A DNA stretch of 62,280 bases from a virus, in the IMG/VR virus record IMGVR_UViG_3300046507_000576, positions 1 through 62,280 of that record. One strand, 5' to 3'. The position numbers and the translations under genes were made by a program. The notes below the pieces were generated by a model, which was not told the origin of the DNA, searched no databases, and was given only the letters and a program-made list of their open reading frames with translations. Shown piece after piece: positions 13,716 to 53,779 of the stretch (positions are counted from its first letter, which is position 1; each line of letters starts with the position of its first letter).

Positions 13716-13792
13716 GCTCCAGTTGTTTGGTTTATGAGTTCATTATGCTGGGTATTTCTCCTCAAGGGAGCCCCAGTTCCTCTATTTTTCTC
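13716..13792 (-). repeat. 77-bp promoter/leader repeat, copy 1
   Basis: Matches 14006-14082 with only four differences. Contains the minus-strand promoter at 13741-13775 and the untranslated leader. The two copies drive the two genes of the insert. Confidence 0.85.
13741..13775 (-). promoter_or_regulatory. Minus-strand box promoter (NADAR gene)
   Basis: CATTAT on the plus strand (ATAATG on the minus strand) and GGGAGCCCC, separated by exactly 19 bases. Same layout as 14031, 40056, 40476, 53575 and 53745. Confidence 0.7.
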
Positions 13793-14000
13793 ACTTGCGA
13801 ATAATGTTAATCTCAACTTCGTCGGAGTTGCTGAACTCGTCAAAGGTGCGGAGCAGCCGAGCAGCGGTCCTGATCGGGCCGTTTGCCGCCCACCAAGCAT
13901 TGGCTTGAGCCCGTACAGGGGTCGTGATCTTACCAGCCTGAGCGCCCAGGGAGTAGCTGGTTTTCTCGGTGCGGAGGTTAGTGATCTCGATGATGTACAT
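13791..14000 (-). CDS. 69-aa hypothetical protein beside NADAR
   Basis: Starts MYIIEITNLRTEKTSYSLG; TGGAGC precedes the ATG at 14000, so an earlier in-frame ATG is less likely. Strand-rich start, then a helix RAQANAWWAANGPIRTAARLL and an acidic end. Unrecognised. It has its own copy of the promoter repeat used by the NADAR gene, which suggests a functional pair. Confidence 0.6.
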   Translation of the reverse strand: MYIIEITNLRTEKTSYSLGAQAGKITTPVRAQANAWWAANGPIRTAARLLRTFDEFSNSDEVEINIIRK

Positions 14001-14005
14001 GCTGT

Positions 14006-14082
14006 GCTCCAGTTGTTTGGTTGATGAGTTCATTATGCTGGGTATTTCTCTTCAAGGGAGCCCCAGTTCTTTTATTTTTCTC
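14006..14082 (-). repeat. 77-bp promoter/leader repeat, copy 2
   Basis: Second copy of the repeat at 13716-13792, upstream of the 69-aa gene. The repeat probably arose when one gene with its leader was copied or inserted by recombination. Confidence 0.85.
14031..14065 (-). promoter_or_regulatory. Minus-strand box promoter (69-aa gene)
   Basis: Plus-strand CATTAT, 19 bases, GGGAGCCCC. Identical in both elements to the copy at 13741. Confidence 0.7.
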
Positions 14083-14190
14083 TATTTCTTTATATTCTTT
14101 TATTTATCTAGAGAGATATAAAGAGAATATAAAGGAATAAGGAATCTAAGTAGTTGATTCTAAAGGCAATCTAGAGGTATAGGGCAACTA
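14066..14190. other. AT-rich inverted-repeat region
   Basis: An island of A/T in a GC-rich genome. CTTTATATTC at 14088-14097 is repeated in inverted form as GAATATAAAG at 14125-14134, with further pairing in the 27-base centre around TCTAGA. The same words occur in the AT-rich region at 62019-62100. Candidate replication origin or regulatory divide between the minus-strand insert and the capsid genes. Confidence 0.55.
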
Positions 14191-14561
14191 GGGCAGTTTG
14201 TCGTCGGGTCGTGGTAGCTGTGTCGACCGCGCCCTGGCCGAGCATGGAGGGGGCCGGCCGACGCATCCCGAATGGCTTCCTGGGCGAACGACGTGCCCAA
14301 GGCTCAGTCAGGCCCGAAAGTCCCGAAAGCCAGTCGCACCTAGGCTTCAACTGTCTGGGCCGAGCTTTTTGGATCTTAAGACTTGTGCTCCGTGCTGGTC
14401 CACGGGGTTACAAGCGCATCTCGCCCGGGTAAACTCTGTCCTGAGCACGCGAGCAGACCTCGCATGTCCCCTGCGGTAGGCGTGACGCTGAAGCAGGGCG
14501 ACCGGTCGGGCGATCCGGCACCCTGAGAGCACACATTTAATAACCACAGAGGATAGAACAC
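14191..14561 (+). other. Long capsid-gene leader, no gene recognised
   Basis: 371 bases, GC-rich, with open frames on both strands but none with a plausible ribosome site or protein-like composition. It should hold the promoter of the major capsid gene; CTTTTTGGATCTTAAGACTT and a TAAACT at ~14429 are weak candidates. Confidence 0.4.
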
Positions 14562-15506
14562 ATGCCTTCCGTTACCCTTGTAGAAAGCGCGAAGCTGGCC
14601 CAGGACGACCTGGTCGCCGGCGTCATCGAGAACGTCATCACCGTCAACGAGATCTTCGACCTGCTGCCCTTCGACGGCATCGACGGCAACTCGCTGGCCT
14701 ACAACCGCGAGAACGTCCTGGGCGACGTGCAGATGGCAGGCGTCGGCGCCACCATCGCTGCCAAGGCAGCCGCAACCTTCACCAAGGTCAACAGCGGCCT
14801 GACCACCATCATCGGCGACGCCGAAGTCAACGGCCTGATCCAGGCGACCCGCTCAGGCGACGGCAACGACCAGGCTGCCATCCAGATCGCGTCGAAGGCC
14901 AAGAGCTGCGGCCGCAAGTTCCAGGACCAGCTCATCAACGGCGACGGCACCGGCGACAACATGACCGGCCTGCTGGGCTTGGTCCCGACTGCCCAGAAGA
15001 TCGGCGCCGACCAGGGCCGCACCGGCACCGCAGCGGCCAATGGCGCCAACCTGTCCTTCGAGGACCTGGACGCCCTGATCGACCTGGTGCTGGACAAGGA
15101 TGGCCAGGTGGACTACCTGATGATGAACGGCCGCACCCGTCGTGCCTACCTGGCCCTGCTGCGTGCCCTGGGTGGTACCAGCCCGGCGGACATCTACGAG
15201 ATGCCGTCCGGCCGCAAGGTCCCGGCCTACCGTGGCATCCCGATCCTGCGCAATGACTGGATCCCAACCAACCAGACCAAGGGCGCCTCGACCAACACCA
15301 CCTCGGTGTTCGCCGGCACCTTCGACGACGGCAGCCGTACCCACGGTATCGCCGGCCTGACCGCCCAGAAGCAGTCGGGCATCCACGTCAAGTACGTGGG
15401 CGAGTCGGAGACCAAGGACGAGTCCATCACCCGCATCAGCTGGTACTGCGGCCTGGCCCTGTTCTCGGAAAAGGGCATCGCCTGCCTGCAGGGTGTGACC
15501 AACTAA
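14562..15506 (+). CDS. Major capsid protein
   Basis: 314 aa, HK97-fold type by context and pattern: an N-terminal helical part, a strand-rich E-loop-like part, GRKFQDQLINGDGTGDNMTGLLGL (the FxxxLINGDG...GLL motif seen in many coat proteins), and a C-terminal domain with GIPILRNDWIP and ISWYCGLALFSEKGIACLQGV. Builds the capsid shell. Codon use is very strongly biased to C-ending codons, as expected for the most abundant protein. AGAGGA precedes the ATG. A strong terminator follows. Confidence 0.88.
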   Translation: MPSVTLVESAKLAQDDLVAGVIENVITVNEIFDLLPFDGIDGNSLAYNRENVLGDVQMAGVGATIAAKAAATFTKVNSGLTTIIGDAEVNGLIQATRSGDGNDQAAIQIASKAKSCGRKFQDQLINGDGTGDNMTGLLGLVPTAQKIGADQGRTGTAAANGANLSFEDLDALIDLVLDKDGQVDYLMMNGRTRRAYLALLRALGGTSPADIYEMPSGRKVPAYRGIPILRNDWIPTNQTKGASTNTTSVFAGTFDDGSRTHGIAGLTAQKQSGIHVKYVGESETKDESITRISWYCGLALFSEKGIACLQGVTN

Positions 15507-15511
15507 TCGAA

Positions 15512-15543
15512 GGTTTTCACCGTAGGCCCCGGCAAGTCACAAT
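15512..15543 (+). promoter_or_regulatory. Weak candidate promoter after the capsid gene
   Basis: GGTTTTCACC, 17 bases, ACAAT. It overlaps the terminator hairpin, so it may be a chance match. Confidence 0.25.
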
Positions 15544-15560
15544 GGCTTCCGGGGCCTTTT
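15525..15560 (+). terminator. Terminator after the major capsid gene
   Basis: GGCCCCGG pairs with CCGGGGCC across a 16-base loop, followed by TTTT. Placed to make the capsid message the most abundant and to limit read-through into neck genes. Confidence 0.7.
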
Positions 15561-15598
15561 CTTTATCCACCATAAAATCACCTTAAGGAGCAGCACCC

Positions 15599-16138
15599 AT
15601 GTCGACCTCCCGCGAAGTCTTCGTACTGATCGGACCGCACGCCGGCAAGACCATGGCAATCAATGGCCACGAGTTCGAGGACGGCGAGTTCGTCTTCCAC
15701 GGCAGCACGGACCAGATCGCCACCCTGACCAACATCTTTGACTTCTACGGCGCCGTGCCAGCCGGCAAGGCCCGCGAGATGGCCATGGAGGCAGAACTGG
15801 CCCAGCTGCGCGCCGAGCGCTCGACCGCCCCGGTCGCCCTGCAGCCAGAAGCGGCTCCTCTCGCACCACTGGCAAGCCTGGCGGCAGCGGTCATGGCCCC
15901 GACCCCGACCCCGACCGAGGCGTCGAGTGCCACGGCTGCTGGCGTCGTGAGTGCCTCGATCAGCCTGGGCGAGGCGATTGGCTCCCTGGACCCGGACGCC
16001 GAGGGCGACTGGACCTCCAACAACCTGCCTTCGCTCGACCGCCTGGCCGCGCTCGTCGGCAAGAAGCCTTCGCGTGATGAGGTCGAGGCGATCGCGTCTG
16101 GCTACACCCGCGCTAAGGCCAAGGCCGCCCGCGCATAA
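15599..16138 (+). CDS. Capsid-adjacent virion protein candidate
   Basis: 179 aa. N-terminus with HAGKTMAINGHEFEDG, Ala/Pro/Thr-rich linker (residues ~75-125), then a C-terminal module DWTSNNLPSLDRLAALVGKKPSRDEVEAIASGYTR. Proteins with this end commonly follow the coat gene in siphophages; role undetermined, perhaps decoration or head completion. AAGGAG upstream. Confidence 0.55.
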   Translation: MSTSREVFVLIGPHAGKTMAINGHEFEDGEFVFHGSTDQIATLTNIFDFYGAVPAGKAREMAMEAELAQLRAERSTAPVALQPEAAPLAPLASLAAAVMAPTPTPTEASSATAAGVVSASISLGEAIGSLDPDAEGDWTSNNLPSLDRLAALVGKKPSRDEVEAIASGYTRAKAKAARA

Positions 16139-16155
16139 CCCCCTAGGAGGACAGT

Positions 16156-16719
16156 ATGACCCTACTCGTGCAAGATGACCGCGCCACCGTTGAGGGAGCC
16201 AACTCCTACGTTGACATGGCCATGCTCAAGGCCTACCACACGACCCGCGGGGTTGACCTGTCCTCCTACACGGACGAGCGTCTCTCCCAGGCGTTGGTAC
16301 TGGCCACCGACTTCTTAGACAGCCGCTACTCCTTCGTCGGCGTACCATTGCGTGCCAAGCAGGGCACGCAGTGCCCGCGCTTCCTCGAGGAGCACGGATC
16401 GACGCGCTTCCCGCAGGACTACAGCACCCTGGAGCCCGGCTACCTACTGACCACCATGCAGTGGACAGCCATCCAGCGAGCCGTCTGCCAGCTGGCGTAC
16501 CGCGAGCTCAAGAAGCCCGGTGGCCTCCTACCCGACCCGGTGCTCGACTCCTCGGGCCAGCGTGTCAAGAAGAAGACCACCAAGGCGGGCCCGATCGAGA
16601 AGGCCGTCGAGTATGACGGGCCGGTCGACCTGATCCCGTCCTATCCCTCCGTTGACCTGCTGCTCAAGTCAGCTGGGCTATTGAACTCCCGCGGTGGCGG
16701 CACGATCGGGAGGGGTTGA
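16156..16719 (+). CDS. Head-tail connector (DnaT-like/adaptor)
   Basis: 187 aa. The N-terminus NSYVDMAMLKAYHTTRG, LATDFLDSRYSFVG and the W-T-AIQRAVCQLAYRE segment match the phage adaptor family often mislabelled as DnaT-like ssDNA-binding. These proteins form the ring beneath the portal. AGGAGG gives a strong start. Confidence 0.8.
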   Translation: MTLLVQDDRATVEGANSYVDMAMLKAYHTTRGVDLSSYTDERLSQALVLATDFLDSRYSFVGVPLRAKQGTQCPRFLEEHGSTRFPQDYSTLEPGYLLTTMQWTAIQRAVCQLAYRELKKPGGLLPDPVLDSSGQRVKKKTTKAGPIEKAVEYDGPVDLIPSYPSVDLLLKSAGLLNSRGGGTIGRG

Positions 16720-17114
16720 TGTCTGCCTTCTACGAGGAGCTCCAGGCCGACGCTCACGAGCTGCTGGCCGAGCTTGGCCAGCTGGTCACCTACACGAGGT
16801 ACTCCGTTGAGACCGACCTGGTGGAGGGCACCTCCGGTCGGACGCCCCAGTTCACGCAGTCCCTGCCGACGGCCGTCCTGCCGGTCAAGGACACGGCCTC
16901 GGGCTTTGACAACCTGGACCTGCGCCCTGTAGATGGCACGAACGCCACCACCGAGGTTAAGTTTGCCATCATCAGCGCGGTGGGAGCTTCCTTCGTGCCC
17001 GTCCGGGGTGACGAGGCCACTTTCGGTGGCAAGACCTGGGTCGTGCTGAGCACCACCACCCTCAATCTGGACGGCGCGACCGACGTCGTCTACCTCGCGG
17101 GTCTCCAGGCATGA
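16719..17114 (+). CDS. Head closure / stopper protein
   Basis: 131 aa, strand-rich, with a long loop and a compact C-terminal beta-barrel (GDEATFGGKTWVVLSTTTLNLDG). Size and position between adaptor and HK97 gp10-like protein fit the stopper that closes the DNA channel. ATG with GGGAGGGG upstream; a TTG three bases earlier is possible. Confidence 0.65.
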   Translation: MSAFYEELQADAHELLAELGQLVTYTRYSVETDLVEGTSGRTPQFTQSLPTAVLPVKDTASGFDNLDLRPVDGTNATTEVKFAIISAVGASFVPVRGDEATFGGKTWVVLSTTTLNLDGATDVVYLAGLQA

Positions 17115-17506
17115 TGTCCTTCTCGGCCGCCGTCAACGCCTGGGGGCATGATGCGCTGGTCACGATCGACCGCGTCCGACGCGCCAGCGCCCTCGAAGTG
17201 TTCTCGCTGGCCATCCAGGGCACGCCAGTCGATACTGGCCTCCTGCGCGGTAACTGGCAGACATCCATCAACTCCCCGCAACTCCGCACGACGGACCGCA
17301 AGGACCCTGGTGGCAGCGCGGCCATCGCCGAGGCCCTGGCCAACCTGGGCAGTCTGGTGGACGTGGTCTACATGGTCAACAGCCTGCCGTACGCCGAGAG
17401 GATCGAATACGAGGGCTACTCCCGCCAAGCTCCTGAGGGCATGGTCCGCATCGCCGCCGCTCGGTGGCAAGAGATCGTCGAGAAGAAAGCAAAGGCATTC
17501 CTATGA
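17111..17506 (+). CDS. HK97 gp10-like neck protein
   Basis: 131 aa. The TPVDTGLLRGNWQ motif (residues ~38-50) and PYAERIEYEGYSRQAPEGMVR motif are characteristic of the HK97 gp10/tail-completion family. It joins the neck to the tail. Overlaps both neighbours by four bases. Confidence 0.85.
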   Translation: MMSFSAAVNAWGHDALVTIDRVRRASALEVFSLAIQGTPVDTGLLRGNWQTSINSPQLRTTDRKDPGGSAAIAEALANLGSLVDVVYMVNSLPYAERIEYEGYSRQAPEGMVRIAAARWQEIVEKKAKAFL

Positions 17507-17910
17507 GCGCACGCGAGACCCTCCGCAAGCTGATCCTGGCAGCCGTACGTGACGCGGTGCAGCTCCCCCTGGAAGGTGAGAACCTGGACTTTGACCGCAC
17601 GCCCGGGGAGCCCTGGGGATCCGTCTACCTGCGCATGGGCCCGACCTACGTGGCCACCCTGGGCGAGGGCGGGTCAGACGGACTAAGCGGGTACGTGCAG
17701 GTCGACCTGCGCTATCCCTCCCACCTCGAGGACGACCTGGCTGCACGGACTGTCCAGGTCCTCGGCAAGCTGCACGCGGGACGCAGGCTCTCGAGCGGCC
17801 TGGTCACCGTCGACCTCGTCTCCCACGGCCGCGTGCGCACTGTGACGGACGAGCCCGTCGGCCTGCTACGCAACCTCACCATCAACTGGTCAGGGCGACT
17901 CCCACGGTAG
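17503..17910 (+). CDS. Tail terminator protein (DUF4128-like)
   Basis: 135 aa. The helix-strand pattern with VYLRMGPTY, a central VQVDLRYP strand, a long helix (LAARTVQVLGKLHAG) and a closing strand LTINWSGRLPR match phage tail terminators, which cap the tail tube and dock to the neck. A related domain appears at the C-terminus of the protein at 20269. Last gene of the neck operon; a promoter follows. Confidence 0.75.
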   Translation: MSARETLRKLILAAVRDAVQLPLEGENLDFDRTPGEPWGSVYLRMGPTYVATLGEGGSDGLSGYVQVDLRYPSHLEDDLAARTVQVLGKLHAGRRLSSGLVTVDLVSHGRVRTVTDEPVGLLRNLTINWSGRLPR

Positions 17911-17915
17911 CCGGG

Positions 17916-17947
17916 GGTTTACCCCGATGGTGGCCCGCGGCAATAAT
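17916..17947 (+). promoter_or_regulatory. Late-type plus-strand promoter
   Basis: GGTTTACCCC, 17 bases, ATAAT. The whole 35-base stretch including GCGGCAATAAT is closely repeated at 21724. Read as sigma-70 style, TTTACC and AATAAT are 18 apart. Serves 17980. Confidence 0.6.
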
Positions 17948-17979
17948 TGCGCCAGGCAACCAACTTGGAGTAAACTCAA

Positions 17980-18396
17980 ATGACCATCACCGCCGCCTTC
18001 CCGAACGCTTCCAAGCTGGAAGCTCTGCAGCTCCTGTGCCCGCCGGGCAACACCTACAAGATGGCGCTGTACCCGTCGACGGCCACCCTCGACAAGACCG
18101 CGACGACCTACTCGGCCGCCGGCGAAGTGACTGGCACCGGCTACACCGCCGGTGGCAAGGCCCTGACCACCTACGCGGCCTCCCTGTCAGGTGACACCGC
18201 CATCCTGGACTTCGACGACGTGACCTGGGCCGGCGCCACCATCACCGCCCGCGGCGCTGTGATCTACGACTCGACCAATGCCAACAAGATCCGCGCGGTG
18301 CTGGACTTCGGCGCGGACATCACCTCGACCAACGGCCCCTTCACAGTCACCCTGCCAGCCCCCGCAGCTGCGACGGCTATCATCCGCCTGGCCTAA
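17980..18396 (+). CDS. Conserved virion-associated protein candidate
   Basis: 138 aa, strand-rich, with YKMALYPSTA, the AGEVTGTGYTAGGKALTTY motif and a GAVIYDST...LDFGADIT end. This protein type is widespread in siphophage tail regions, possibly a decoration or tail-surface protein; its function is not established. It has its own promoter, so it is likely made in quantity. Confidence 0.6.
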   Translation: MTITAAFPNASKLEALQLLCPPGNTYKMALYPSTATLDKTATTYSAAGEVTGTGYTAGGKALTTYAASLSGDTAILDFDDVTWAGATITARGAVIYDSTNANKIRAVLDFGADITSTNGPFTVTLPAPAAATAIIRLA

Positions 18397-18407
18397 GGGG
18401 ACGACGG

Positions 18408-18806
18408 ATGACACAGGCCAATTCGCCCCGCCTGGGGCTGACGCCCTACCGCCCGCATGCCGATGGCCCGCTGACGACCATCAGCGTCAGGCCCGGCGCG
18501 GTCGAGGTGGCCATGCTCTACGACCTCCCGGGCTGCCACACCCGACTGCACGCCCACACGTTCGACCACGTTATGCACTGCGACGCTGGCCGTGCTCGTA
18601 TTGAGATTGATGGGCAGGTGTCCATTGTGGGCCCGGGGGATACTTACCTGGTCGAGGCGCACAAGCAACACAGCGTAGTTCCCCTCGCCCTCGACACCGT
18701 GCTGCGCTGCGTGCACGAGCACGCTGACATTGACCCCGCCAAGACAGACGGGCATGGCATTCCGATGGAATGGCTGGACCGGCTAACTGACAAGGAATTG
18801 GCATGA
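18408..18806 (+). CDS. Cupin-domain protein
   Basis: 132 aa. Both cupin motifs are visible: GCHTRLHAHTFDHVMHCDAGRARIEIDG (motif 1 with two His and Glu-like spacing) and GDTYLVEAHKQHSVV (motif 2 with His). A metal-binding beta-barrel, substrate unknown. Its place in the tail module suggests a virion or assembly role, or a passenger enzyme. Confidence 0.7.
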   Translation: MTQANSPRLGLTPYRPHADGPLTTISVRPGAVEVAMLYDLPGCHTRLHAHTFDHVMHCDAGRARIEIDGQVSIVGPGDTYLVEAHKQHSVVPLALDTVLRCVHEHADIDPAKTDGHGIPMEWLDRLTDKELA

Positions 18807-38527: not shown

Positions 38528-39136
38528 TTACACCTCGGGTTTCTGCTCGGCAGCCGTCGTCTTGGCCTTTGCAGGCACTGCGCGGGGGCGGGTGGGAGGC
38601 ATCTTGCCGGCCTCACGCATGTGGACGGCATACCAGCGGAGGCAGGCCACGGAGGTCTTGGCGCCGTCGTACTTCTCCTTGATCTTGTCGAGGATGGTGG
38701 CGTAGGAGTGGCCCACCTTGCGGCCGTCGCCGTCCTTGCTGACCACCTCCATCAGCAAGCCCTCGGCGTAGGCGCGGATGGACTCGCCCTTGACCTTCTT
38801 GGGCTTCTCGGTCTCAGCGGCCTTAAGGGCCTTTGCGCGGGCCACCTCGTCCTCAGCCTTCTTCAGGGCCGCGGCCTCTTCCTCCTCGGCCTTCTTCTGT
38901 GCAGCGAGGCCTTCTGCCGAAGGCAAGAGGATACCTTCAATCAGGGCGCCGTTGACGTCGTACTTCTCGTCAAGGTTCACGCCCTTTTCGTTGGCGAGCT
39001 TGAGGACCCGCTCTACCGCCTTGGAGCGCTGCGAGAAGGTCTTCATCGTGGCAGTGCCGCCCAGCTCGTTGACGATGCGCACGAGGGTGGCCATGTTGAG
39101 GACGCTGAGGTCCAGCAGTGCTTTGGTGTTCTTCAT
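38528..39136 (-). CDS. WY-domain family protein C
   Basis: 202 aa. N-terminal ~70 residues helical, then a Lys/Glu/Ala coiled coil (~75-115), then the shared domain at ~125-185 with ILDKIKEKYDGAKTSVACLRWYAVHMREAG. The TSxxSxxWY core is also in the proteins at 39237, 40163 and 45555. Basic tail (PRAVPAKAKT). Likely nucleic-acid binding; inference. Degenerate box promoter at 39186. Confidence 0.55.
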   Translation of the reverse strand: MKNTKALLDLSVLNMATLVRIVNELGGTATMKTFSQRSKAVERVLKLANEKGVNLDEKYDVNGALIEGILLPSAEGLAAQKKAEEEEAAALKKAEDEVARAKALKAAETEKPKKVKGESIRAYAEGLLMEVVSKDGDGRKVGHSYATILDKIKEKYDGAKTSVACLRWYAVHMREAGKMPPTRPRAVPAKAKTTAAEQKPEV

Positions 39137-39185
39137 GTCTTGTTCTCCCGATCTACGTTAGGGCGCCCCGCGCGCCCAAGTCCAT

Positions 39186-39219
39186 CATTATGCCCGAGCT
39201 TGACGGGCAGTGCGCACCG
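39186..39219 (-). promoter_or_regulatory. Degenerate minus-strand box promoter
   Basis: Plus-strand CATTAT, 18 bases, GTGCGCACCG: a weaker, one-base-shorter version of the GGGAGCNCCC promoter, upstream of the gene starting at 39136. Confidence 0.4.
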
Positions 39220-39236
39220 TCAAGCCATTGTTTGTC

Positions 39237-40022
39237 TTAGTATTGGTACTTTTTGAGCAGAGCCACCACCTCAGCTGTCGACAGCCCATTGAGTACGAGA
39301 GCATTATGGGCCGTCACGTACTTCTTGATGTTCTCGGACGTCGGGGCGGCCGACACAGTGTAGAGCTTACCGTCGCCGGTGAAGTAGGCGATGCGGGTGT
39401 CCTTCTTTGTAAGTTTCTCTGCCTGCTTGAGTAGCATCACGTCGTTGACGAGGTCCTCGACCACGGTGTCCATGTCGTACCGCATGGTCAAGGACTTGTC
39501 AAATTGGTTTTGGTAAGTGCCCTTCTCATTACAGAAGGCCGCAAACATGGCCTCTTCTTCAGTGCCTTTATATGAGTGAGGCTTGCCCTCGTAGGTGTAG
39601 ACGTGCACCGTTGCGGGCACCTTGTCTACCCAATAAAAGTGCACTGGGCCCCCGTCAGCGTGGTCCACCGCGACGGCAACCTTCTTGCCCTCACGGTAGA
39701 GAGTACATTCATAGCCCGCACCCTCAGTGCCCGTGATGTTTTTGATACCCTTAACGGAGTAAGCAGGAGGCACGACTACCGCCGCAGTGGGAGTCAGCTT
39801 GAGGCCTCCCTCAACATTCTTGCCCGCCTTGAATTTAAGGGGCTCTTGCGGAGCTTTGGGGGCCTTCGGCGCACCGCCCTGCTTTTTCATCTGCGAGCGA
39901 TACCACGCAACGCTGGCCGAGGTCGTCTGAGCGTCCGGATGCTCTGCCTTGACGAGGGCAAGGATGGCTGCCGTGTCTTTGCCCTCGGCGAGGGCCTTGC
40001 GGATGATGTCACCAATCTTCAT
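39237..40022 (-). CDS. WY-domain family protein A
   Basis: 261 aa. The shared domain is at the N-terminus (residues ~1-50: IIRKALAEG...LVKAEHPDAQTTSASVAWYRSQMKKQG), followed by a Lys/Pro-rich linker and a strand-rich C-terminal domain (~95-261) of unknown type. Start chosen at CAGGAGAACAAGC-ATG. GC is lower than its neighbours. It has its own box promoter at 40056. Confidence 0.55.
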   Translation of the reverse strand: MKIGDIIRKALAEGKDTAAILALVKAEHPDAQTTSASVAWYRSQMKKQGGAPKAPKAPQEPLKFKAGKNVEGGLKLTPTAAVVVPPAYSVKGIKNITGTEGAGYECTLYREGKKVAVAVDHADGGPVHFYWVDKVPATVHVYTYEGKPHSYKGTEEEAMFAAFCNEKGTYQNQFDKSLTMRYDMDTVVEDLVNDVMLLKQAEKLTKKDTRIAYFTGDGKLYTVSAAPTSENIKKYVTAHNALVLNGLSTAEVVALLKKYQY

Positions 40023-40055
40023 GCTTGTTCTCCTGTGTGGGTGAGTTGATGAATT

Positions 40056-40090
40056 CATTATGCCCCTGATATTGGACAATGGGAGCGCCC
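40056..40090 (-). promoter_or_regulatory. Minus-strand box promoter
   Basis: Plus-strand CATTAT, 19 bases, GGGAGCGCCC. Drives the WY-domain protein ending at 39237. Confidence 0.7.
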
Positions 40091-40121
40091 TTCACACAAG
40101 AAAATTGTAACGGAAATGAGA

Positions 40122-40162: not shown

Positions 40163-40420
40163 TTAGTGGGCGCGTTGGCTTGCGTCGCCCTTAGCACGAG
40201 GGCCCCAATTACGACGGTCGTTGGCACGCTTGACGTTCACGGCCACGCCGTCCGCACGGAGGCGGCTCGCATACCACTGCACCGTCTTGACGCTCGTCTC
40301 GCACTCAGGGTGGCGCTTCTGGATCTCCTCGACTACGCCCTCGTAGCTCAGGGGGCGCTTGCGGGTCAGCAAGGCAATGGTGTCTTCTTTGATGGTGCGG
40401 GGGGCGTTCTTCGATGCCAT
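40163..40420 (-). CDS. WY-domain family protein B (domain only)
   Basis: 85 aa, consisting of little more than the shared domain (LSYEGVVEEIQKRHPECETSVKTVQWYASRLRADG) and a basic tail (KRANDRRNWGPRAKG). That makes it the minimal member of the family and the best one to study for DNA or RNA binding. Start after GAGAGGAAACATC. Single-gene unit between a box promoter and a terminator. Confidence 0.6.
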   Translation of the reverse strand: MASKNAPRTIKEDTIALLTRKRPLSYEGVVEEIQKRHPECETSVKTVQWYASRLRADGVAVNVKRANDRRNWGPRAKGDASQRAH

Positions 40421-40475
40421 GATGTTTCCTCTCAAGTAGTTTGTGCGGGAACTGCGTTGGGTAACGCAGTGAAAT

Positions 40476-40510
40476 CATTATGTAATAGAAGAGGGCGCTT
40501 GGGAACGCCC
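40476..40510 (-). promoter_or_regulatory. Minus-strand box promoter overlapping a terminator
   Basis: Plus-strand CATTAT, 19 bases, GGGAACGCCC. The box lies in an AGGGCG/CGCCCT hairpin (40493-40511) that may also terminate the gene at 40541. Confidence 0.65.
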
Positions 40511-40540
40511 TGTTTATCCCTTCTTATTGTAGGACAAATC

Positions 40541-44206: not shown

Positions 44207-44427
44207 TAGCCACCTCCACATAAGGACACGACATTGGCAAAATCTTCTCGGTCAAACTCATGCCAGCCGTGAGACTCCGTCAAGTGCAGGGCATCAAACT
44301 GGGCTAGCACTTTAGTTGGCACGGTTGACGGACGAATCAAGCAGCCGTGAAAGCGAAGGCGGTTATTGTCCCCATCGTATATTGCCTTAGACAGACAGGT
44401 TATTGGAATCAGCCGGGCATAAGTCAT
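44206..44427 (-). CDS. Hypothetical protein
   Basis: 73 aa after a strong GAAGGAGG. Mixed alpha/beta composition with three Cys and three His. GC is slightly lower than its neighbours. Stop and the next start share one base. Unrecognised. Confidence 0.45.
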   Translation of the reverse strand: MTYARLIPITCLSKAIYDGDNNRLRFHGCLIRPSTVPTKVLAQFDALHLTESHGWHEFDREDFANVVSLCGGG

Positions 44428-45452
44428 GCTGCCTCCTTCTTGGCGCGTGGCTGCTTGGCACAGAAGACCTCGTGGCCCTCGGGGATCAGCAGGCGGGCCT
44501 TAATGCCGTCCTCGCTCAGCTCGTAGCCGAGGCCGTTCTCCTTGTTGATGGTGAAGAGGTGGGACAGAATGGCCGATCGGTTGAGCTCCAACTCTTTCTC
44601 GGCGAAGGCGATCGTGCCCCAAGTCAAGAACAGGGAGGCCACGGTGGCGCGCTTCCCGGGTTGGGGGATCGGCGCGAGGGCCTCAGTGTTGATGGCCTTG
44701 CCGCTCGTGCGCTTCTTCACCTCCTTCGGCGGGCCGTCCTCGGCGGCAGGCTTCTCCTTCTTCTTCTCGGGCTCGACGTAGGCAAACAGGTCGAAGCCCT
44801 CGGGGATGATGAGGGTCGCACAGTCGCCAGCCAGTGAGTAGCCGATGCCGTGGTCCCGCGAGAGGCAGAACAGGTGGGAGAGGACCCCAGAGCGGGTGAG
44901 GCCGAGGCGGGCCATCGCCTCGTGCAGGGACTGGGGCTTGTCGGCCATGAAGAACTTGGCGACCTCACCGCGCTTGCTGCCGGGCTTGACGGGACGGAGG
45001 TTCTCCGTCACGACCGGCTTGCCGCCCTGCACCTTCGGCTCACCACTCTCCTGCACACGGCTGAAGGACGAGGGGGATGCCTCGATCGTGGTGGGCACCT
45101 CGGCGCCCAGTTGAGTCAGCACCATGGCCGCCACGGCGAAGTCGCGCTGCAGGCCCAGCTGGGCGGCGTCGGTCCAACCCTGGGTGACGAGAGCGGCCAG
45201 GCGCTCGTTCGTGACCTCGACAGGCTTCGCGAGGCCGACCTCACCGCAGGAGTTGGGCACCTGGTAGGACTGCAGGGAGTAGGGGCAGAGAAGGGTGGAG
45301 CGCTTCTCGCCGCGGAGGAGGACCACGTGGCCGTAGCCGGCGGTCGGAGGGGTGTTGACAGCGAACCGGTGCCGCCAGTGGCCGGGCTGCTGCCCGTTGA
45401 CGAAGTAGGTGCGGACGAGCTGGGGGATGGGGGCTTGGGCCTGTTGGGTCAT
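44424..45452 (-). CDS. Protein with two tandem winged-helix-like repeats
   Basis: 342 aa. After a ~165-residue N-terminal part come two copies of one domain: GSKRGEVAKFFM...GLTRSGVLSHLFCLSRDHGIGYSL...LIIPEGFDLF (~175-245) and GKRATVASLFLTW...ELNRSAILSHLFTINKENGLGYEL...LLIPEGHEVF (~262-335). Each reads as a winged helix, so the protein probably binds DNA at two half-sites. Preceded by a TATAAT and a leader hairpin. Confidence 0.6.
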   Translation of the reverse strand: MTQQAQAPIPQLVRTYFVNGQQPGHWRHRFAVNTPPTAGYGHVVLLRGEKRSTLLCPYSLQSYQVPNSCGEVGLAKPVEVTNERLAALVTQGWTDAAQLGLQRDFAVAAMVLTQLGAEVPTTIEASPSSFSRVQESGEPKVQGGKPVVTENLRPVKPGSKRGEVAKFFMADKPQSLHEAMARLGLTRSGVLSHLFCLSRDHGIGYSLAGDCATLIIPEGFDLFAYVEPEKKKEKPAAEDGPPKEVKKRTSGKAINTEALAPIPQPGKRATVASLFLTWGTIAFAEKELELNRSAILSHLFTINKENGLGYELSEDGIKARLLIPEGHEVFCAKQPRAKKEAA

Positions 45453-47796: not shown

Positions 47797-48011
47797 AGGG
47801 CCAGCTCCAACTGTCCCGGTGGCGTCTTGGACGGGCACTTCTTCCAGGTGATCTGCCGGCGCGCTGCCCACGACAACACGACGTGGAGCCCTTCGCCGAC
47901 CGACCACCCTAAAGACGGCGTGGCCGAGGTCACTTTGCCCTTCACCACCTGCACACGGGAGGGCATCAAGCAGCCCCCGTGCTTCTCTTTTGCTGAGAAT
48001 ACGAGCTCCAT
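47793..48011 (-). CDS. Small protein upstream of the helicase
   Basis: 72 aa, compact, strand-rich (RVQVVKGKVTSATP, LHVVLSWAARRQITWKKC), possibly an OB or SH3-like barrel. Its TGA overlaps the helicase GTG. Function unknown; coupling suggests a helicase accessory. Confidence 0.45.
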   Translation of the reverse strand: MELVFSAKEKHGGCLMPSRVQVVKGKVTSATPSLGWSVGEGLHVVLSWAARRQITWKKCPSKTPPGQLELAL

Positions 48012-48025
48012 CTTTCTTCCTCACT

Positions 48026-48229
48026 TCAGCAGTACATGAGGGTGAACGGGGCATTGCCCCAGGCCCAGTGGCCGAGCCAGCAGCCTACCAGCAGCATAAT
48101 CAAGCCTGCGAGGGCATCCCCGTCGAACGTGCCGAGGCCAAACAGGGACCACAGCACCATGGCCCCACCCGCCAGCACCAGGACCCCTGCCATGGCCACG
48201 CAGAACTCAAATCCAAGCAAGTCTTTCAT
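48026..48229 (-). CDS. Two-helix membrane protein
   Basis: 67 aa, nearly all hydrophobic: helices at ~8-30 and ~38-57 with Gly-rich turns. GGGGAA lies before the ATG; a longer start has no ribosome site. Role unknown. Confidence 0.5.
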   Translation of the reverse strand: MKDLLGFEFCVAMAGVLVLAGGAMVLWSLFGLGTFDGDALAGLIMLLVGCWLGHWAWGNAPFTLMYC

Positions 48230-48230
48230 T

Positions 48231-48401
48231 TCAGTTCCCCGTGTCGTTATCGGTGAGGGCCCACTTAGTAAACTCATGGGCCGTACGGCCCCAAGCTGCC
48301 TGTTCCTCGGCGTCGAGGCTACTCCAGCTCTCTACCTCGCAATTGTTTAACCGGAGTTGTGACTCCGCGTACAGCTCGTACAGCCTTTGCCCTACACTCA
48401 T
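48231..48401 (-). CDS. Small helical hypothetical protein
   Basis: 56 aa from the ATG after AAGGGGAATATC. Helical, with YELYAESQLRLNNCEVESWSSLDAEEQAAWGRTAHEF, a segment like those in other small phage proteins of unknown function. Confidence 0.45.
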   Translation of the reverse strand: MSVGQRLYELYAESQLRLNNCEVESWSSLDAEEQAAWGRTAHEFTKWALTDNDTGN

Positions 48402-48412
48402 GATATTCCCCT

Positions 48413-50743
48413 TTATTTCTTGTACCGGTATCCCGACCAGCCTTCTGCTGCTACGGGGCATCCCTCAGCCCACGCCGGCAGCTCGGCCATCAGGTGCTCG
48501 AACTCCTTGACGTCTCCCGTCTCCGGGTCACCCTCGGCAATCAGCTCGTCGTGCACCGACAGGACGACGTCGTAGTCCTCCCCGTCGTGTGCCCGCAGCA
48601 TCGCCTCGGCCATCAGGTCCCGGGCCACAGCCTGGGTGATGTTCTCGACTATCATGCCCCCGTAAGTGTCCTGGCGACGCCACTTCTTGCTGTAGGGGTC
48701 GACGCCCATGAAAGTGAGGGCGTCCTTGGCGCTGCCCCAGGGCGTCGGGCGCTTGACCGTCAGCGGGTCAATGTAGCTGAGCATGCGGCCGCTCGGGAGC
48801 TTGCAGTGGAGGACCTTGAATAGCCCGTGGTCGACGACGCACCACTGGACCTTCCCGCACTTGACGACGCGGCCCGGCGTCTTGGTGGCCGCGATGGCCG
48901 CCGCCTCCTGGTCGTTCCACATCTGCTTGATGCGCCAGAACTTCTGGCGGTACTTGTCGACGATGACCTGCGAGAACTCCAGCTCGATGTGGGTCCCGTA
49001 CTTCGCCACCGTGTCGACGAACTTTGGCGCCCCCATCTGGTAGCCCAGGCCCAGGACCGCCTGCTTGCCCATCTGCCTCTCGTCTATGTCGACGCCCTTA
49101 ATGATCGGGCGGCCGTAGATGTCAGACGCCATCTCGCAGTAGATGCACTCACCCCGGTGGAAGATGCCCAGAGCCTCCTGGTCGTCGGCCAGCCAGAAGA
49201 TCACGCGCGCCTCAATGGCCGCGTAGTCGGCGACGTACAGCTTGCGGCCCTTGCGGGGGATAATCATCCCGCGGAGCGAGTAGGACAGGCACTCCATCAC
49301 GTCGCCGTACAGCATCTCGATGAGGGGGATGTCCTTGGACTTCAGGACCTCCCACGCACCCTCCATGTCCTTGATGTTGCCGCGGGGGAAGTTGTGGGGC
49401 TGCAGCCCCGCGCCGGACCACCTGCCCGTGCCCGCGCCGTGGTAGAGCAGGCCTCCGTGGATCCGCCAGGTGGCCGGATCCGACCAGTTCAGCGCGGCGA
49501 CGTACTTGGCTGTCGACGTCCGACCGAGCGAGCGGACGAGCTGCAGGCAGCGATGCACCTTGGGTGGCAGGTCACCGCGCTGCAGCCAGGCGTCGATCGT
49601 CGCTCCCTGGGTGTCCTCGAGGTGCAGCCCGTTGTCGGCGAACCACTCGAGCATCTTCACCCGCTGGGTTGCCTTCTGCACCCGGCCGTCCGTGATGCGC
49701 ACCAGCTCCTCGTTGAGGTCCCTGTAGATGATGTCGACGATCTCCAGCGCGGCCTTGACCGCCTCTCCGTCGACCTGGAAGCCGTGCTCGTTGATGTGCT
49801 GGTCCATGAGGTAGACCCGCGTCTCTGTCGGGCTCAGGTCCCTCAGCACCTCGGACAGGCCCTCCTCCGCCAGCACGTCCACCCGGCAGTACGCCCACAG
49901 GCGCTCGAGCAGCTCGACGCTCTCGTGCCAGAAGACGGGCAGGTCGTGCCACGCGTCGTGGCTCCACGTGGGCAAATCCCACTGGGCATGCACCCTGTAA
50001 GTGCCCGCCTCTGTCTTCTCGACGGCCGTGTGGACATCCTTGGGCTTGCAGGTGAGGCCGAACCGCCCCATGACCCACGCCTTCACCTCGGCCACCTTGG
50101 GCTTGCGGGGCTTGGCCATCTTCTTCATGACCTTGGCGCCCTCGGTGTCCTTGCGGATGACGAGCTTCAGGGCCTCGACTGCCTTCTCGAGGGAGCGCGG
50201 TATGGAGTAGGCCGCTGCCTTTGCGGCCGAGCAGCGCCACTGCTCGTGGCGGATGGGGAACCAGCCGTGCACTGGCACCATCTTGTTGGTCCAGATGCCC
50301 CGCTCGAACCACGCGTTGTGGGCCTCGACCAGCCTGCCCGTCAGGATCCACTCCTCGAGCTCCTTCCGCTCGGGGCAGTCGGCCTCTGGTATGCCGAGGT
50401 GCGGGAAGGCCGGGTACCACAGGGCCGTCCGACCGTGCTCCCAGTAGGGGAGGCGGAAGACGAGGCACATCACCTCGGTGGTGGGGTCTAGCGAGTAGCG
50501 CCAGCTGCCGCTGTCCTTGATGGAGCACGCGGAGCGGGTCTCGAAGTCAATGGTGGCCTTGGGCGGGTTGGCCCAGACGCGGGCCTTCTTGGAGACCGAC
50601 GGCGGGACCTCGGCCGGGTGGATGCCCCTGGGCAAGGCCGCGGGGGAGGGAGAGCCGTAGGACAGCGAGGACTGCACCTCGCTGCCCCCGTGATGGAGCG
50701 TCTCGACGAGCTCGCCGTCGCGGATGATCTGGGTGGTTGACAA
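48413..50743 (-). CDS. DNA polymerase, family A (phage type)
   Basis: 776 aa, replicative polymerase. 3'-5' exonuclease: IDFETRS (D66, E68) and EAHNAWFE. Polymerase: motif A VADYAAIEARV, motif B KQAVLGLGYQMG, motif C SVHDELIAE (H730-D731-E732 region). Lacks a 5' nuclease. Works with the PrimPol-helicase at 59128 and the ssDNA-binding protein at 53860. Confidence 0.92.
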   Translation of the reverse strand: MSTTQIIRDGELVETLHHGGSEVQSSLSYGSPSPAALPRGIHPAEVPPSVSKKARVWANPPKATIDFETRSACSIKDSGSWRYSLDPTTEVMCLVFRLPYWEHGRTALWYPAFPHLGIPEADCPERKELEEWILTGRLVEAHNAWFERGIWTNKMVPVHGWFPIRHEQWRCSAAKAAAYSIPRSLEKAVEALKLVIRKDTEGAKVMKKMAKPRKPKVAEVKAWVMGRFGLTCKPKDVHTAVEKTEAGTYRVHAQWDLPTWSHDAWHDLPVFWHESVELLERLWAYCRVDVLAEEGLSEVLRDLSPTETRVYLMDQHINEHGFQVDGEAVKAALEIVDIIYRDLNEELVRITDGRVQKATQRVKMLEWFADNGLHLEDTQGATIDAWLQRGDLPPKVHRCLQLVRSLGRTSTAKYVAALNWSDPATWRIHGGLLYHGAGTGRWSGAGLQPHNFPRGNIKDMEGAWEVLKSKDIPLIEMLYGDVMECLSYSLRGMIIPRKGRKLYVADYAAIEARVIFWLADDQEALGIFHRGECIYCEMASDIYGRPIIKGVDIDERQMGKQAVLGLGYQMGAPKFVDTVAKYGTHIELEFSQVIVDKYRQKFWRIKQMWNDQEAAAIAATKTPGRVVKCGKVQWCVVDHGLFKVLHCKLPSGRMLSYIDPLTVKRPTPWGSAKDALTFMGVDPYSKKWRRQDTYGGMIVENITQAVARDLMAEAMLRAHDGEDYDVVLSVHDELIAEGDPETGDVKEFEHLMAELPAWAEGCPVAAEGWSGYRYKK

Positions 50744-50779
50744 GTCTGCCTCCTGGGAGAAGCAGACATCTTACCCCGG

Positions 50780-51241
50780 CTATGCCCCGAACTGCACCGC
50801 CAGAGACAGCTCCCGAATGCATTCGGCGGCAACGGCGCACTGCTGGAGGCTCATCCAGGCCACGTGCACCTCCTCCCAGGGAGGGACACCCATGCGCTCG
50901 GCCAGCAGCGCGTAGGCCTCGGACCTGGACATCAGCCCAGACTCCCAGATGGGGTCCAGGAGCTCGTGCATCTGCCGCCTGGCCGCCTTCGTCTGCCGGT
51001 CCGCCATGATCCCCATAGGGAAGACTGAGAACGGGTGGCAGCCTGTCGACGCCTCGCAGCTCAGGCAGTACCACACGACGGGCCACTTGCCCTGGTTGGA
51101 GCCGTAGAGGACGCGGTTCTGTACCAGCACGGCCGGCCCGCCGCAGCAGTCACAGGCCTTGGGCGGGTCGCGCCACTCGGGGAACCTTTTGCGGTGGTTG
51201 CAGGGCCGGGTGACGGCCTCCCGCAGTGCCTTCTCAGGCAT
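50780..51241 (-). CDS. DUF3268-like zinc protein
   Basis: 153 aa. CDCCGGPAVLV...YCLSCEASTG forms a zinc ribbon and FPMGIMADRQTKAARRQMHELLDPIW the helical block typical of the DUF3268 zinc-finger-containing family. Function not established; these proteins occur in phage replication clusters. Confidence 0.7.
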   Translation of the reverse strand: MPEKALREAVTRPCNHRKRFPEWRDPPKACDCCGGPAVLVQNRVLYGSNQGKWPVVWYCLSCEASTGCHPFSVFPMGIMADRQTKAARRQMHELLDPIWESGLMSRSEAYALLAERMGVPPWEEVHVAWMSLQQCAVAAECIRELSLAVQFGA

Positions 51242-51659
51242 GGCCCACCCCCTTCTTCAGCACCCCCACCAGCGCCATGATGCGCGGGTCGGCGGTGAGC
51301 TTCTCCGAGCCCGGGAGGCCCATGTGTATGCGGACGGCCTGCTGCATCGCCTTCGGCTCGAGGTGGATGCGGCGCATCTCCTTGTACAGGAGGGCCTTCG
51401 CCTGGGCATACGGTTCCAGGGCGGCCTGCTCGAGCCTCTCGAGCGTGAGGAGTTGCTGGCCGAGCACGCCGAGGACGTCCTCGATCGCCACGACCGGGTA
51501 GTGCGGGAGGATGTCTCGGGTACCCGCAAGGGGCAGGCCTGCGAAGTCCGCCCGCGCTTCTAGGAAGCGGACGGGCTCGAGGCCCGCCTTGCAGAACGGG
51601 CACTCCCCGAGAAAGGAAGACCTGTGGTCCTCACACCACTTGGGGGTCACTTGGGGCAT
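51234..51659 (-). CDS. Hypothetical protein with CxxC
   Basis: 141 aa. KWCEDH and CPFC near the N-terminus could bind zinc with the His. The remainder is helical (VLGVLGQQLLTLERLEQAALEPYAQAKALLYKEM). Overlaps the DUF3268-like gene by eight bases. Unrecognised. Confidence 0.5.
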   Translation of the reverse strand: MPQVTPKWCEDHRSSFLGECPFCKAGLEPVRFLEARADFAGLPLAGTRDILPHYPVVAIEDVLGVLGQQLLTLERLEQAALEPYAQAKALLYKEMRRIHLEPKAMQQAVRIHMGLPGSEKLTADPRIMALVGVLKKGVGHA

Positions 51660-51892
51660 TAGCGCATCCCTGGCATGTAGACCGCGAGGCGCTCCATCAG
51701 CTCCCCGATGTTGGTCTCGTGGAAGTTGAGGCCGATTCGCGCCACGTCAAGTATGGCGCGAGTCTCAGGGCGTATGTCCTCGCCCCGGCAGAAGTAGTAC
51801 CTTGTACGGAGCTCGACCAGGGCCGCGTAGAGGATGGCGAGGTCCCGCTGAGACAGTGGCACGTCTTCTGGTGGAATGTACCCGATGCTCAT
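51659..51892 (-). CDS. Small helical hypothetical protein
   Basis: 77 aa, helical, with SQRDLAILYAALVELRTRYYFC. One-base and four-base junctions with its neighbours show it belongs to the same operon. No family recognised. Confidence 0.5.
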   Translation of the reverse strand: MSIGYIPPEDVPLSQRDLAILYAALVELRTRYYFCRGEDIRPETRAILDVARIGLNFHETNIGELMERLAVYMPGMR

Positions 51893-52578
51893 TTTTGGTG
51901 CTCCAGCTTGAGCTGCTCTTCAGTGAGCGGCACGTTGAGGGAGAACTCCTCAGCGGCAGCCATACCCTCGAGCATGGCTGCTCGGTCGAGGTCGCTCCGC
52001 TTCTTGCTCTCGATGACCTCCAGGGCCCCGAACTTCCTGTTGAGGTACGTCTTGACCGCGAGGGTCTCGACCTCGGGTGGCACCAGCTTGGACACCTGCC
52101 CGTGGACGACAGACAGCCAGCCTATATAGAAGGCCTGCCGCTTGCCGCCGACACTCTTTAGCCACGGGCGCCTCGCGAGCATCTTGGCCCAGGACTCCTC
52201 GAGACCCCTCTGCAGGACCCGGTGTGTGTACTCTGCCAACCGGACGCGCTGCTCGGTCCCAAAGTAGCGGACGTTGAGCCGGTTCGCCGTGCCCGGGTTC
52301 CGGGAGTACACCACCTCGACGCCAAAGGCATCCTCGACGAGGGAGACGAGGTGATTCATGTAGCGGCAGGCCCCGTAGCCCTCCCGGGTCTTGACCTCGG
52401 CCTCGACGACGCTCGGTGCCTCGACCTCCTCGGCCGTCACGCCGAGGGCCGCCATCAGCTTCTGGGCCTGACGCATGGCCACTGCTGCCTCGTGAGGCTC
52501 GGGGCTGCTCGAGAGGGCGAGGCACTTCTTGATCTTGTCGAGGAGCTTGGCGCGCTGCTCGGGGGTATGGTCAGCCAT
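51889..52578 (-). CDS. DUF2786-family protein
   Basis: 229 aa. KLLDKIKKCLALSSSPEPHEAAVAMRQAQKLMA at the N-terminus is the DUF2786 motif, followed by a mixed domain with WAKMLAR...KSVGGKRQAFYIGW that recurs in phage homologues. Start after GGGGAGAGTACTG. Function unknown. Confidence 0.75.
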   Translation of the reverse strand: MADHTPEQRAKLLDKIKKCLALSSSPEPHEAAVAMRQAQKLMAALGVTAEEVEAPSVVEAEVKTREGYGACRYMNHLVSLVEDAFGVEVVYSRNPGTANRLNVRYFGTEQRVRLAEYTHRVLQRGLEESWAKMLARRPWLKSVGGKRQAFYIGWLSVVHGQVSKLVPPEVETLAVKTYLNRKFGALEVIESKKRSDLDRAAMLEGMAAAEEFSLNVPLTEEQLKLEHQK

Positions 52579-52906
52579 CAGTACTCTCCCCAATAAACTG
52601 CTTCCACACCCACGCATTAGCCACCACATACCGGTCACCTAGCTCTCTCGCCTCGTCCGCCGTTTTCCCCCTAGCAGTCAAGGCAGTGTTTGGCCCAGTT
52701 GCGCAAAAAAGTCGAATTTTCCAGCTATCTGGGGCCTCCCGTATGACTTCCACCACAGTTCGCTCATCGGGGTACCCCGCAGCATGGGGGTATTTGAGGG
52801 CAAGGTACCAGCTACGACGGGACTCCGTAACCCGCATCAGCCCTGTTGGTCTTTCTCCCTTTTTCCACTGCAGCTTGACACCTTTGGGCAGTCCATACTT
52901 ACTCAT
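52571..52906 (-). CDS. Hypothetical protein, AP2-like region
   Basis: 111 aa from the ATG after TGGAG. Strand-rich first half (LQWKKGERPTGLMRVTESRRSWYLALKY), then a TALTARGKTADEARELGDRYVVAN helix, reminiscent of small AP2-type DNA-binding repeats. GC is lower than average. Not certain. Confidence 0.4.
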   Translation of the reverse strand: MSKYGLPKGVKLQWKKGERPTGLMRVTESRRSWYLALKYPHAAGYPDERTVVEVIREAPDSWKIRLFCATGPNTALTARGKTADEARELGDRYVVANAWVWKQFIGESTDG

Positions 52907-52918
52907 GATAAACTCCAT

Positions 52919-53089
52919 TTAAAAGCCAAGCACTCGCTTGGCAAGGTAGATCGTCTCGCCGAGGTACGGGTGGCGCGTCCCCGGAACTTCTTGACGGGTG
53001 TCGGTGTCATAGCACGCCCACCCTGCCTTGTCTTTGAGGAATTGGAAGCCGAGGGCCTCCAACTCCGACATCAGATGCTTAGTCGTCAC
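52919..53089 (-). CDS. Short hypothetical protein (56 aa)
   Basis: GTG start after GAGGG, overlapping the upstream gene by 11 bases. Sequence TTKHLMSELEALGFQFLKDKAGWACYDTDTRQ... ends TIYLAKRVLGF. Composition is protein-like and it exactly fills the gap between two genes, which supports it as real. Confidence 0.55.
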   Translation of the reverse strand: MTTKHLMSELEALGFQFLKDKAGWACYDTDTRQEVPGTRHPYLGETIYLAKRVLGF

Positions 53090-53291
53090 TTACGGGGCCC
53101 TCTACCACGTCGTTGAGCACCTCCACTGCCGAGTCGTGCAGAGCCGCCTCGTCCCAGAAGGGTTTGGCCTGCTCGGGCTTGTCGATCGCCTCGAGGCCCT
53201 TGGCAAGCCCACGGCACTGCGCGGCCTTCACGTGGTGCCACTTGCGCAGCTCGCGCAGGTTGGTTGGCAGACCACTCTTAATTTGTCCCAT
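53079..53291 (-). CDS. Hypothetical protein
   Basis: 70 aa, helical and charged, with LRELRKWHHVKAAQCRGLAKGL. Strong AGGAG upstream. Unrecognised. Confidence 0.5.
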   Translation of the reverse strand: MGQIKSGLPTNLRELRKWHHVKAAQCRGLAKGLEAIDKPEQAKPFWDEAALHDSAVEVLNDVVEGPVSDD

Positions 53292-53300
53292 GGCTTTCTC

Positions 53301-53516
53301 CTATCCCAAAGTCTTTAACCAGCGGCCGTCCTCGGTCAGGTCGTAGCGCTGGCCGCGTCCGACGCCGAGCCCCATGCCCTCCTTGACGTGGCACAGCTCG
53401 TGCATGATGCCCCACGGGCCCGACTTCGTGCGCCCGTCCACGAACACCTTCGCCAACTTGGCCCCACAGACGTCACACTTCGTTGGCGGAGTGCTTGCCC
53501 AATAAACTTTTGCCAT
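53301..53516 (-). CDS. Small zinc-type protein
   Basis: 71 aa. KCDVCGAKL and, after a gap, MHELCH could form one metal site (two Cys, His, Cys/His). First gene behind the box promoter at 53575, so it probably opens the transcript covering 48-53 kb. Confidence 0.55.
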   Translation of the reverse strand: MAKVYWASTPPTKCDVCGAKLAKVFVDGRTKSGPWGIMHELCHVKEGMGLGVGRGQRYDLTEDGRWLKTLG

Positions 53517-53574
53517 AACTATGCTCCAATAGAAGCGAGACTGACGGCTCGCAAGTAAATCAAGTCAGTAGGAC

Positions 53575-53609
53575 CATTATAAGGGGAAACTCCCTTCACG
53601 GGAGCCCCC
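53575..53609 (-). promoter_or_regulatory. Minus-strand box promoter
   Basis: Plus-strand CATTAT, 19 bases, GGGAGCCCCC, 58 bases before the zinc-protein start at 53516. Confidence 0.7.
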
Positions 53610-53744
53610 TAAGCCCATAATATTACGGCAATTCAAGGGGAGTCACCCCCATCGTTTCCTCAACCCACTTCATGAGCTGCTCGACCGGGAGGCCATTGCC
53701 CTCATTGCACTTGTCGTGCTCCTCAGTGTTGGTTGGTATGGATT

Positions 53745-53779
53745 CATTATGTACCCACGTTGGAGATAGGGGAGCACCC
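53745..53779 (-). promoter_or_regulatory. Minus-strand box promoter, no clear gene
   Basis: Plus-strand CATTAT, 19 bases, GGGAGCACCC. It would transcribe the remnant frame between 53610 and 53744 and then the next operon. Confidence 0.65.

Follow-up and report, generated by a model that had tools for sequence, protein, structure and literature searches.

A conserved box takes the -35 position in a predicted promoter class of Bradleyvirinae phages

INTRODUCTION

How is a promoter recognized when a phage-specific box stands where its -35 element should be? The question is raised by a 62,280-bp virus record (IMG/VR record IMGVR_UViG_3300046507_000576; 'the window' below means this whole stretch), which is related to the Bradleyvirinae (Pamexvirus, Bosavirus, Variovorax phages and others) and in which a first-pass annotation had pointed out a box recurring on the minus strand at a constant distance from a -10 element. 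Judged on their sequence, these sites are almost certainly promoters of a Bradleyvirinae-specific class in which the box replaces the -35 element, and we lean towards a phage-encoded protein that reads the box and through which host RNA polymerase is recruited. As far as the literature found shows, this promoter class of the subfamily was previously undescribed; the literature search returned no paper that describes the box.

RESULTS

Geometry of the promoter module

The six sites, at 13741, 14031, 40056, 40476, 53575 and 53745, were confirmed, and in each of them CATTAT and the box are separated by exactly 19 bp; the spacer is 18 bp when counted to the -10 hexamer, and position -12 is C or T. 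At 13741 and 14031 the box ends in GGGAGCCCCA (CCCCA versus CCC) and misses the final base of the consensus initially proposed. These two promoters are near copies (82 of 100 bp) and are therefore not independent sites. All six combine a GGGGCTCCC-like box, a 17-18 bp spacing, a TATAAT-like -10 and CA at +1. All three exact occurrences of GGGGCTCCC in the window are at box promoters, and in the window alone the loose pattern occurs 7 times against a shuffle mean of 2.3. Moreover, a profile of the full module, built from the sites of the window and its relatives, scores the six sites at 23-55, with the best true sites reaching 79, and returns no score of at least 15 in 2.4 Mb of shuffled DNA.

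A logo of 33 sites aligned on the -10 defines the module's parts. An A/T tract, AAAWWWTTT, lies at -55 to -47, and it resembles the UP element's distal half in both sequence and place. The box, with A(-41), [GA](-40), GGGG-C-T-CCC at -39 to -31 and [AT](-30), can be summarized as A[GA]GGGGCTCCC[AT] and occupies the usual place of the -35 element; it is followed by CCC at -17 to -15 and TATAATG at -12 to -6. Invariant positions are -38, -36, -34, -33 and -32 in the box and A(-11), A(-8) and T(-7) in the -10, and overall the box is conserved at least as well as the -10. The predicted start has C(-1) in 28/33 sites and A(+1) in 32/33, after which a CA-rich leader begins. Across 52 non-redundant sites of the subfamily, the 18-bp spacing is shared (17 at one promoter).

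The lack of a TTGACA-like -35, remarked on at first reading, is borne out by the logo and by a sigma70 scan of the window, and a conserved TGn is missing as well; the box sites thus have neither a TTGACA-like -35 at 16-18 bp nor an extended -10. Instead of the GG-N10-GC at -24/-12 of a sigma54 promoter, the type found at YuA late genes, the conserved module has TATAAT at -12 to -7. Together, the fixed spacing, the absence of a -35 or TGn, the UP-like tract and the near-invariant box argue for polymerase recruitment rather than a repressor site.

Conservation across the subfamily

The module precedes the same genes in all of the Bradleyvirinae genomes examined (AXL_1, DLP4 (one stretch), DoCa10, PaMx74, PaMx28, VBv52, V45iii, Mallos, Donnerlittchen, DoCa5, A1432, AAT-1 and ZQG1), as the motif scan of relatives suggested in the first-pass annotation has now found. 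The conserved positions are at the ybiA accessory block, which is flanked by the scaffold and major head genes; at genes p2 and p1; and where the replication block begins, after the single-stranded DNA (ssDNA)-binding-protein gene. In particular, the promoter of p2, or of the gene that occupies the p2 position, has the box in 12/12 relatives. Nearly all box promoters lie on the replication strand; in addition, ZQG1 has four extra ones on the opposite strand, before small genes of unassigned function. In the relatives, GGGGCTCCC is almost confined to box promoters.

Further, the module is present in IMG/VR loci whose thymidylate synthase is at least 50% identical to that of the window (L091-L103). 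A profile search found no module in RcSimone, and none in about 40 distant IMG/VR loci (L104-L143) except for three near-threshold matches.

Box asymmetry and alternative explanations

The box had been described as a dyad, which is not borne out: across the 52 sites, T(-34) is present in 51/52 and its partner A(-37) in 0/52, and there are 0 perfect palindromes. SacI-site avoidance was considered as a cause of the asymmetry and is ruled out, since these genomes contain GAGCTC, which would form the centre of a perfect palindrome, as often as expected. A dyad operator is rejected on this asymmetry, and reading by sigma region 4 or by a monomeric protein fits better.

This bears on the explanation that survives best among the alternatives, namely that the sites are ordinary host sigma70 promoters, with a UP-like tract and a good -10, whose -35 region is covered by the operator of a phage repressor or autoregulator. 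The good -10, the A/T tract, the near-dyad look of the box and the expression of ybiA in a DLP4 lysogen (see below) would all suit such an arrangement. However, the box is asymmetric, there is no TTGACA or conserved TGn, with CCC at -17 to -15 instead, the box is conserved at least as well as the -10, and an operator has no need of a distance to the -10 fixed at 18 bp (17 at one promoter); we regard this explanation as unlikely. The original suggestion of a phage-specific activator, repressor or sigma specificity survives as a promoter class with a box at -35, its sequence, spacing, position and synteny all kept in relatives; its dyad does not, and a plain repressor operator is argued against.

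A phage-encoded sigma factor, with region 4 reading GGGGCTCCC and region 2 reading TATAAT, would account for an asymmetric box at the -35 position with fixed spacing, but no sigma-family match (Pfam, PHROGs, NCBIfam) was found among the scanned proteins, a subset of the window's, and this reading appears improbable. More improbable still is a host activator or alternative sigma factor that reads the box. The same motif in phages of beta- and gamma-proteobacterial hosts could point to a shared host factor; however, in 257 Gb of bacterial DNA (84,980 species genomes) the core pattern occurs 15 times, scattered over unrelated groups and at chance level, with 0 matches in the host genera, and YuA, a sister phage on Pseudomonas, makes no use of the motif. 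The chance level indicates that this is not a host promoter class, and, with the motif missing from host genomes, a phage factor is favoured. Chance repeats or a recent functionless duplication, as the near copies at 13741 and 14031 might suggest, can hardly explain sites that are kept in the same places, with divergent flanks, in phages with mostly 30-80% protein identity to the window.

Individual promoters and their genes

At five sites a minus-strand gene starts 20-53 nt past the predicted +1, in keeping with the first-pass annotation (Table 1). The sixth, P53745, sits between the terminator of the ssDNA-binding-protein gene and P53575, without an intact gene directly downstream and followed by reading-frame remnants only. 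The stretch after it, 53620-53738, holds an open frame that lacks a good start codon and ends ...MKWVEETMGVTPLELP; it is perhaps the remnant of a small gene, a decayed accessory gene. At 13735-14082, the promoter and leader are present in two copies that flank the 69-aa gene, for which no homologue was found among the relatives examined. P40476 is the weakest of the six, and its leader carries an inverted repeat, GCGTTACCCAACGC.

The degenerate seventh copy that had been listed at 39186 coincides with a conserved promoter position, that of p1, where the relatives have the box, mostly with 17-bp spacing and with a second element, GCA[AG]TGCG, nearby; in the window the box itself has been lost and CGCACTGC is found instead. 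In five relatives, annotated gene starts lie upstream of or on the box promoter: PaMx74 (L008) gp18, Mallos (L056) gp56, DoCa5 (L058) gp42, AAT-1 (L060) gp14 and ZQG1 (L061) WID42034. These annotated starts are probably wrong, the true ones lying further downstream.

Table 1. Coordinates of promoters, genes and elements in the window and in relatives
Feature	Genome	Coordinates	Strand	Details
P13741	Window	13735..13792	-	A/T tract 13782-13790; box TGGGGCTCCC 13775..13766; -10 CATAAT 13747..13742; predicted +1 A 13735
NADAR/YbiA-family gene	Window	13173..13715	-	Pfam NADAR 1.7e-48; behind P13741; leader ~20 nt, or ATG at 13682
P14031	Window	14025..14082	-	Box TGGGGCTCCC 14065..14056; -10 CATAAT 14037..14032; predicted +1 14025
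69-aa gene	Window	13791..14000	-	Function unassigned; behind P14031, 25-nt leader
P40056	Window	40050..40107	-	A/T tract; box GGGCGCTCCC 40090..40081; -10 CATAAT 40062..40057; predicted +1 40050
Gene p2, 261 aa	Window	39237..40022	-	PHROG 17767; N-terminal three-helix helix-turn-helix (HTH)-like domain and unassigned C-terminal domain
P40476	Window	40470..40527	-	Box GGGCGTTCCC 40510..40501; -10 CATAAT 40482..40477; predicted +1 40470
Gene p3, 85 aa	Window	40163..40420	-	Winged-helix-like
P53575	Window	53569..53626	-	Box GGGGGCTCCC 53609..53600; -10 TATAAT 53581..53576; predicted +1 53569
71-aa gene	Window	53301..53516	-	Opens block leading to replication genes
P53745	Window	53739..53796	-	Box GGGTGCTCCC 53779..53770; -10 CATAAT 53751..53746; predicted +1 53739
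Degenerate seventh site	Window	39180..39240	-	Gene p1 promoter position; -10 CATAAT 39192..39187; CGCACTGC element at 39207
Gene p1, 202 aa	Window	38528..39136	-	C-terminal winged-helix-like domain; in every Bradleyvirinae genome checked
342-aa protein	Window	44424..45452	-	Two HTH-like repeats on visual inspection; weak match to HTH (E 0.044)
59-aa ribbon-helix-helix (RHH)-like protein	Window	58952..59131	+	Precedes primase gene
GCA[AG]TGCG element	Window	39207		
GCA[AG]TGCG element	L007	40965, 23722		
GCA[AG]TGCG element	L008 (PaMx74)	46859, 46940, 28565		
GCA[AG]TGCG element	L058 (DoCa5)	45306, 45330, 27910		
GCA[AG]TGCG element	L060 (AAT-1)	43745, 43847, 25904		
YuA annotated repeats (five)	L062 (YuA)	7722, 10500, 22639, 29058, 31098		

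Candidate readers of the box

A winged-helix-like domain family, without a name in Pfam or NCBIfam, is found in window genes p1, p2, p3 and p4, and both p1 and p4 are present in all subfamily genomes checked. The AlphaFold model of p3 has a three-helix winged-helix-like fold (mean predicted local distance difference test score, pLDDT, of 75.8) whose weak structural matches in the PDB are mostly winged HTH (wHTH) regulators; a sequence search of p3 against the PDB gave no match. For p2, a fold search of the PDB gave no significant match, and its viral matches are uncharacterised phage proteins only. The 342-aa protein is found in 12/12 relatives, and it and p1 are the leading candidate regulators. 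The HTH protein at 959, put forward earlier as a binder, has no homologue in any box-carrying relative.

Several observations weigh against a phage-encoded reader of this kind. The distribution of the box is matched by no candidate: DoCa5 lacks p2, and PaMx28, A1432, Mallos and AAT-1 lack p3, yet all of these genomes keep their boxes, and p1, p4 and the 342-aa protein are found in box-less relatives as well. By E-value, none of the structural matches of p3 reaches significance (best 0.48). Finally, reverse transcription PCR is reported to show expression of ybiA in the DLP4 lysogen (PMC6469090), and the ybiA operon of this phage carries a box promoter, so the promoter may work without lytic development. 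Because the boxes are kept where p2 or p3 is missing, either of these as the sole box factor is ruled out.

In several relatives, the large minor head protein (L009 3263-6856, L059 1047-4370, L012 44811-48401 and L010 32876-36472) contains two copies of the winged-helix-like domain shared by p1-p4; the window's shorter homologue of that protein (380 aa) gave no match to the domain. In relatives, an ADP-ribosyltransferase (VIP2) domain is reported for the large protein, which suggests that the protein may be injected.

The GCA[AG]TGCG element

The second element, GCA[AG]TGCG (CGCA[TC]TGC on the other strand), is present in 2-9 copies per genome and is concentrated in the divergent region before the RHH gene and at the p1 promoter. 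In ZQG1 the RHH protein is divergent, and the element is missing from both the RHH-gene and p1 promoter regions. The element is probably the operator of the small RHH protein. The same protein had been nominated as a binder of the box, which is now less likely, as GCA[AG]TGCG in its own promoter region and in that of the 202-aa gene fits better.

DISCUSSION

We infer from the sequence a model that covers promoter activity, use of host polymerase, a phage protein at the box, and timing. The host RNA polymerase holoenzyme would bind the -10, TATAATG, via sigma70 region 2, and the C-terminal domain of its alpha subunit (alpha-CTD) would contact the A/T tract at -55 to -47. The box, A[GA]GGGGCTCCC[AT] at -41 to -30, would supply the -35 contact in place of TTGACA; most likely, a phage-encoded DNA-binding protein would sit at the box and take over or stand in for the contact of sigma region 4, much as MotA/AsiA do in T4. 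Transcription would begin at the A of CA (+1) and pass through a short leader into accessory, winged-helix regulatory and replication-block genes, and the phage could switch on the whole set together once the factor is made. As a tentative and rather doubtful assignment, a p1-type winged-helix protein or the 342-aa double-HTH protein might be what replaces the region 4 contact at the asymmetric GGGGCTCCC. If so, the phages would possess a sigma-appropriation system unrelated to MotA/AsiA and kept across phages of beta- and gamma-proteobacteria.

For the subfamily as a whole, the module makes a defined regulon readable from sequence, and several annotated gene starts and promoter calls become doubtful. 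Which phage protein enables host polymerase to work at a promoter lacking a -35 also becomes a testable question. The PaTJ RNA-seq data, from a PAE1-like phage at one time point, were not usable here.

An annotated counterpart is the predicted promoter noted for the ybiA operon in the AXL1 and DLP4 papers (DLP4: PMC6469090). It lies in the same place, its spans falling on the A/T tract that immediately precedes the box and, in AXL1, extending into the box; in contrast to the promoter identified here, it is a tool prediction on an AT-rich stretch and lies off the -10. The box, this -10 and their recurrence are not described in the searched text of these papers.

In YuA (Yuavirus), from the sister subfamily Rabinowitzvirinae, 28-bp repeats are annotated as a 'putative sigma70 promoter requiring phage-encoded cofactor'. 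Like the box promoters, they are repeated between genes of a related phage, are non-canonical over the -35, and have a TATACT-like -10, 18-bp spacing and CA near +1. However, they consist of CTTTACTTCTTCGG with a partial TTTACT (CTTTAC over the -35) and have no GGGGCTCCC box; the box sites in turn lack the CTTTACTTCTTCGG-N-CACTATA of the YuA repeat, and in a profile search of YuA a single place passes, with a low score. Further, in L121, L122 and L125, which belong to the wider clade and have no box, TTTACA-N17 promoter-like sequences precede the p1 homologue. Taken with YuA's own repeats, these sequences make it appear that the -35 position has been re-specified within the group. Sequences of the TGTTTACAAG type are located before this homologue in L122 (near 8110), L125 (near 8930) and L121 (near 4690), and may be a separate repeated class.

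The Mor and C activators of phage Mu bind dyads at sites over the -35 region of promoters that have a -10 and no -35 consensus. The Mu middle and late promoters are thus alike in placing an activator site over the -35 region, but the Mor and C sites are dyads, whereas the box is asymmetric, and no member of the Mor/C family was found among the proteins scanned.

Middle promoters of T4 combine a good -10 and no consensus -35 with a phage-specific box in its place, the MotA box, centred at -30, and they serve a co-regulated gene set. Sigma appropriation is the subject of PMC6755090. The box promoters resemble the T4 middle promoters in each of these traits: a good -10, the lack of a -35 consensus, a phage-specific box and a co-regulated set. 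However, the box differs from the MotA box in sequence and position, with GGGGCTCCC lying within -41 to -30 and the box centred near -35.5. No MotA or AsiA homologue turned up, although no search aimed at them was made. Overall, the box promoters belong with the phage promoters that have a substitute -35 element and, if a new appropriation factor stands behind the box, they would be an independent example on the short list of mechanisms by which phages are known to redirect sigma70 polymerase.

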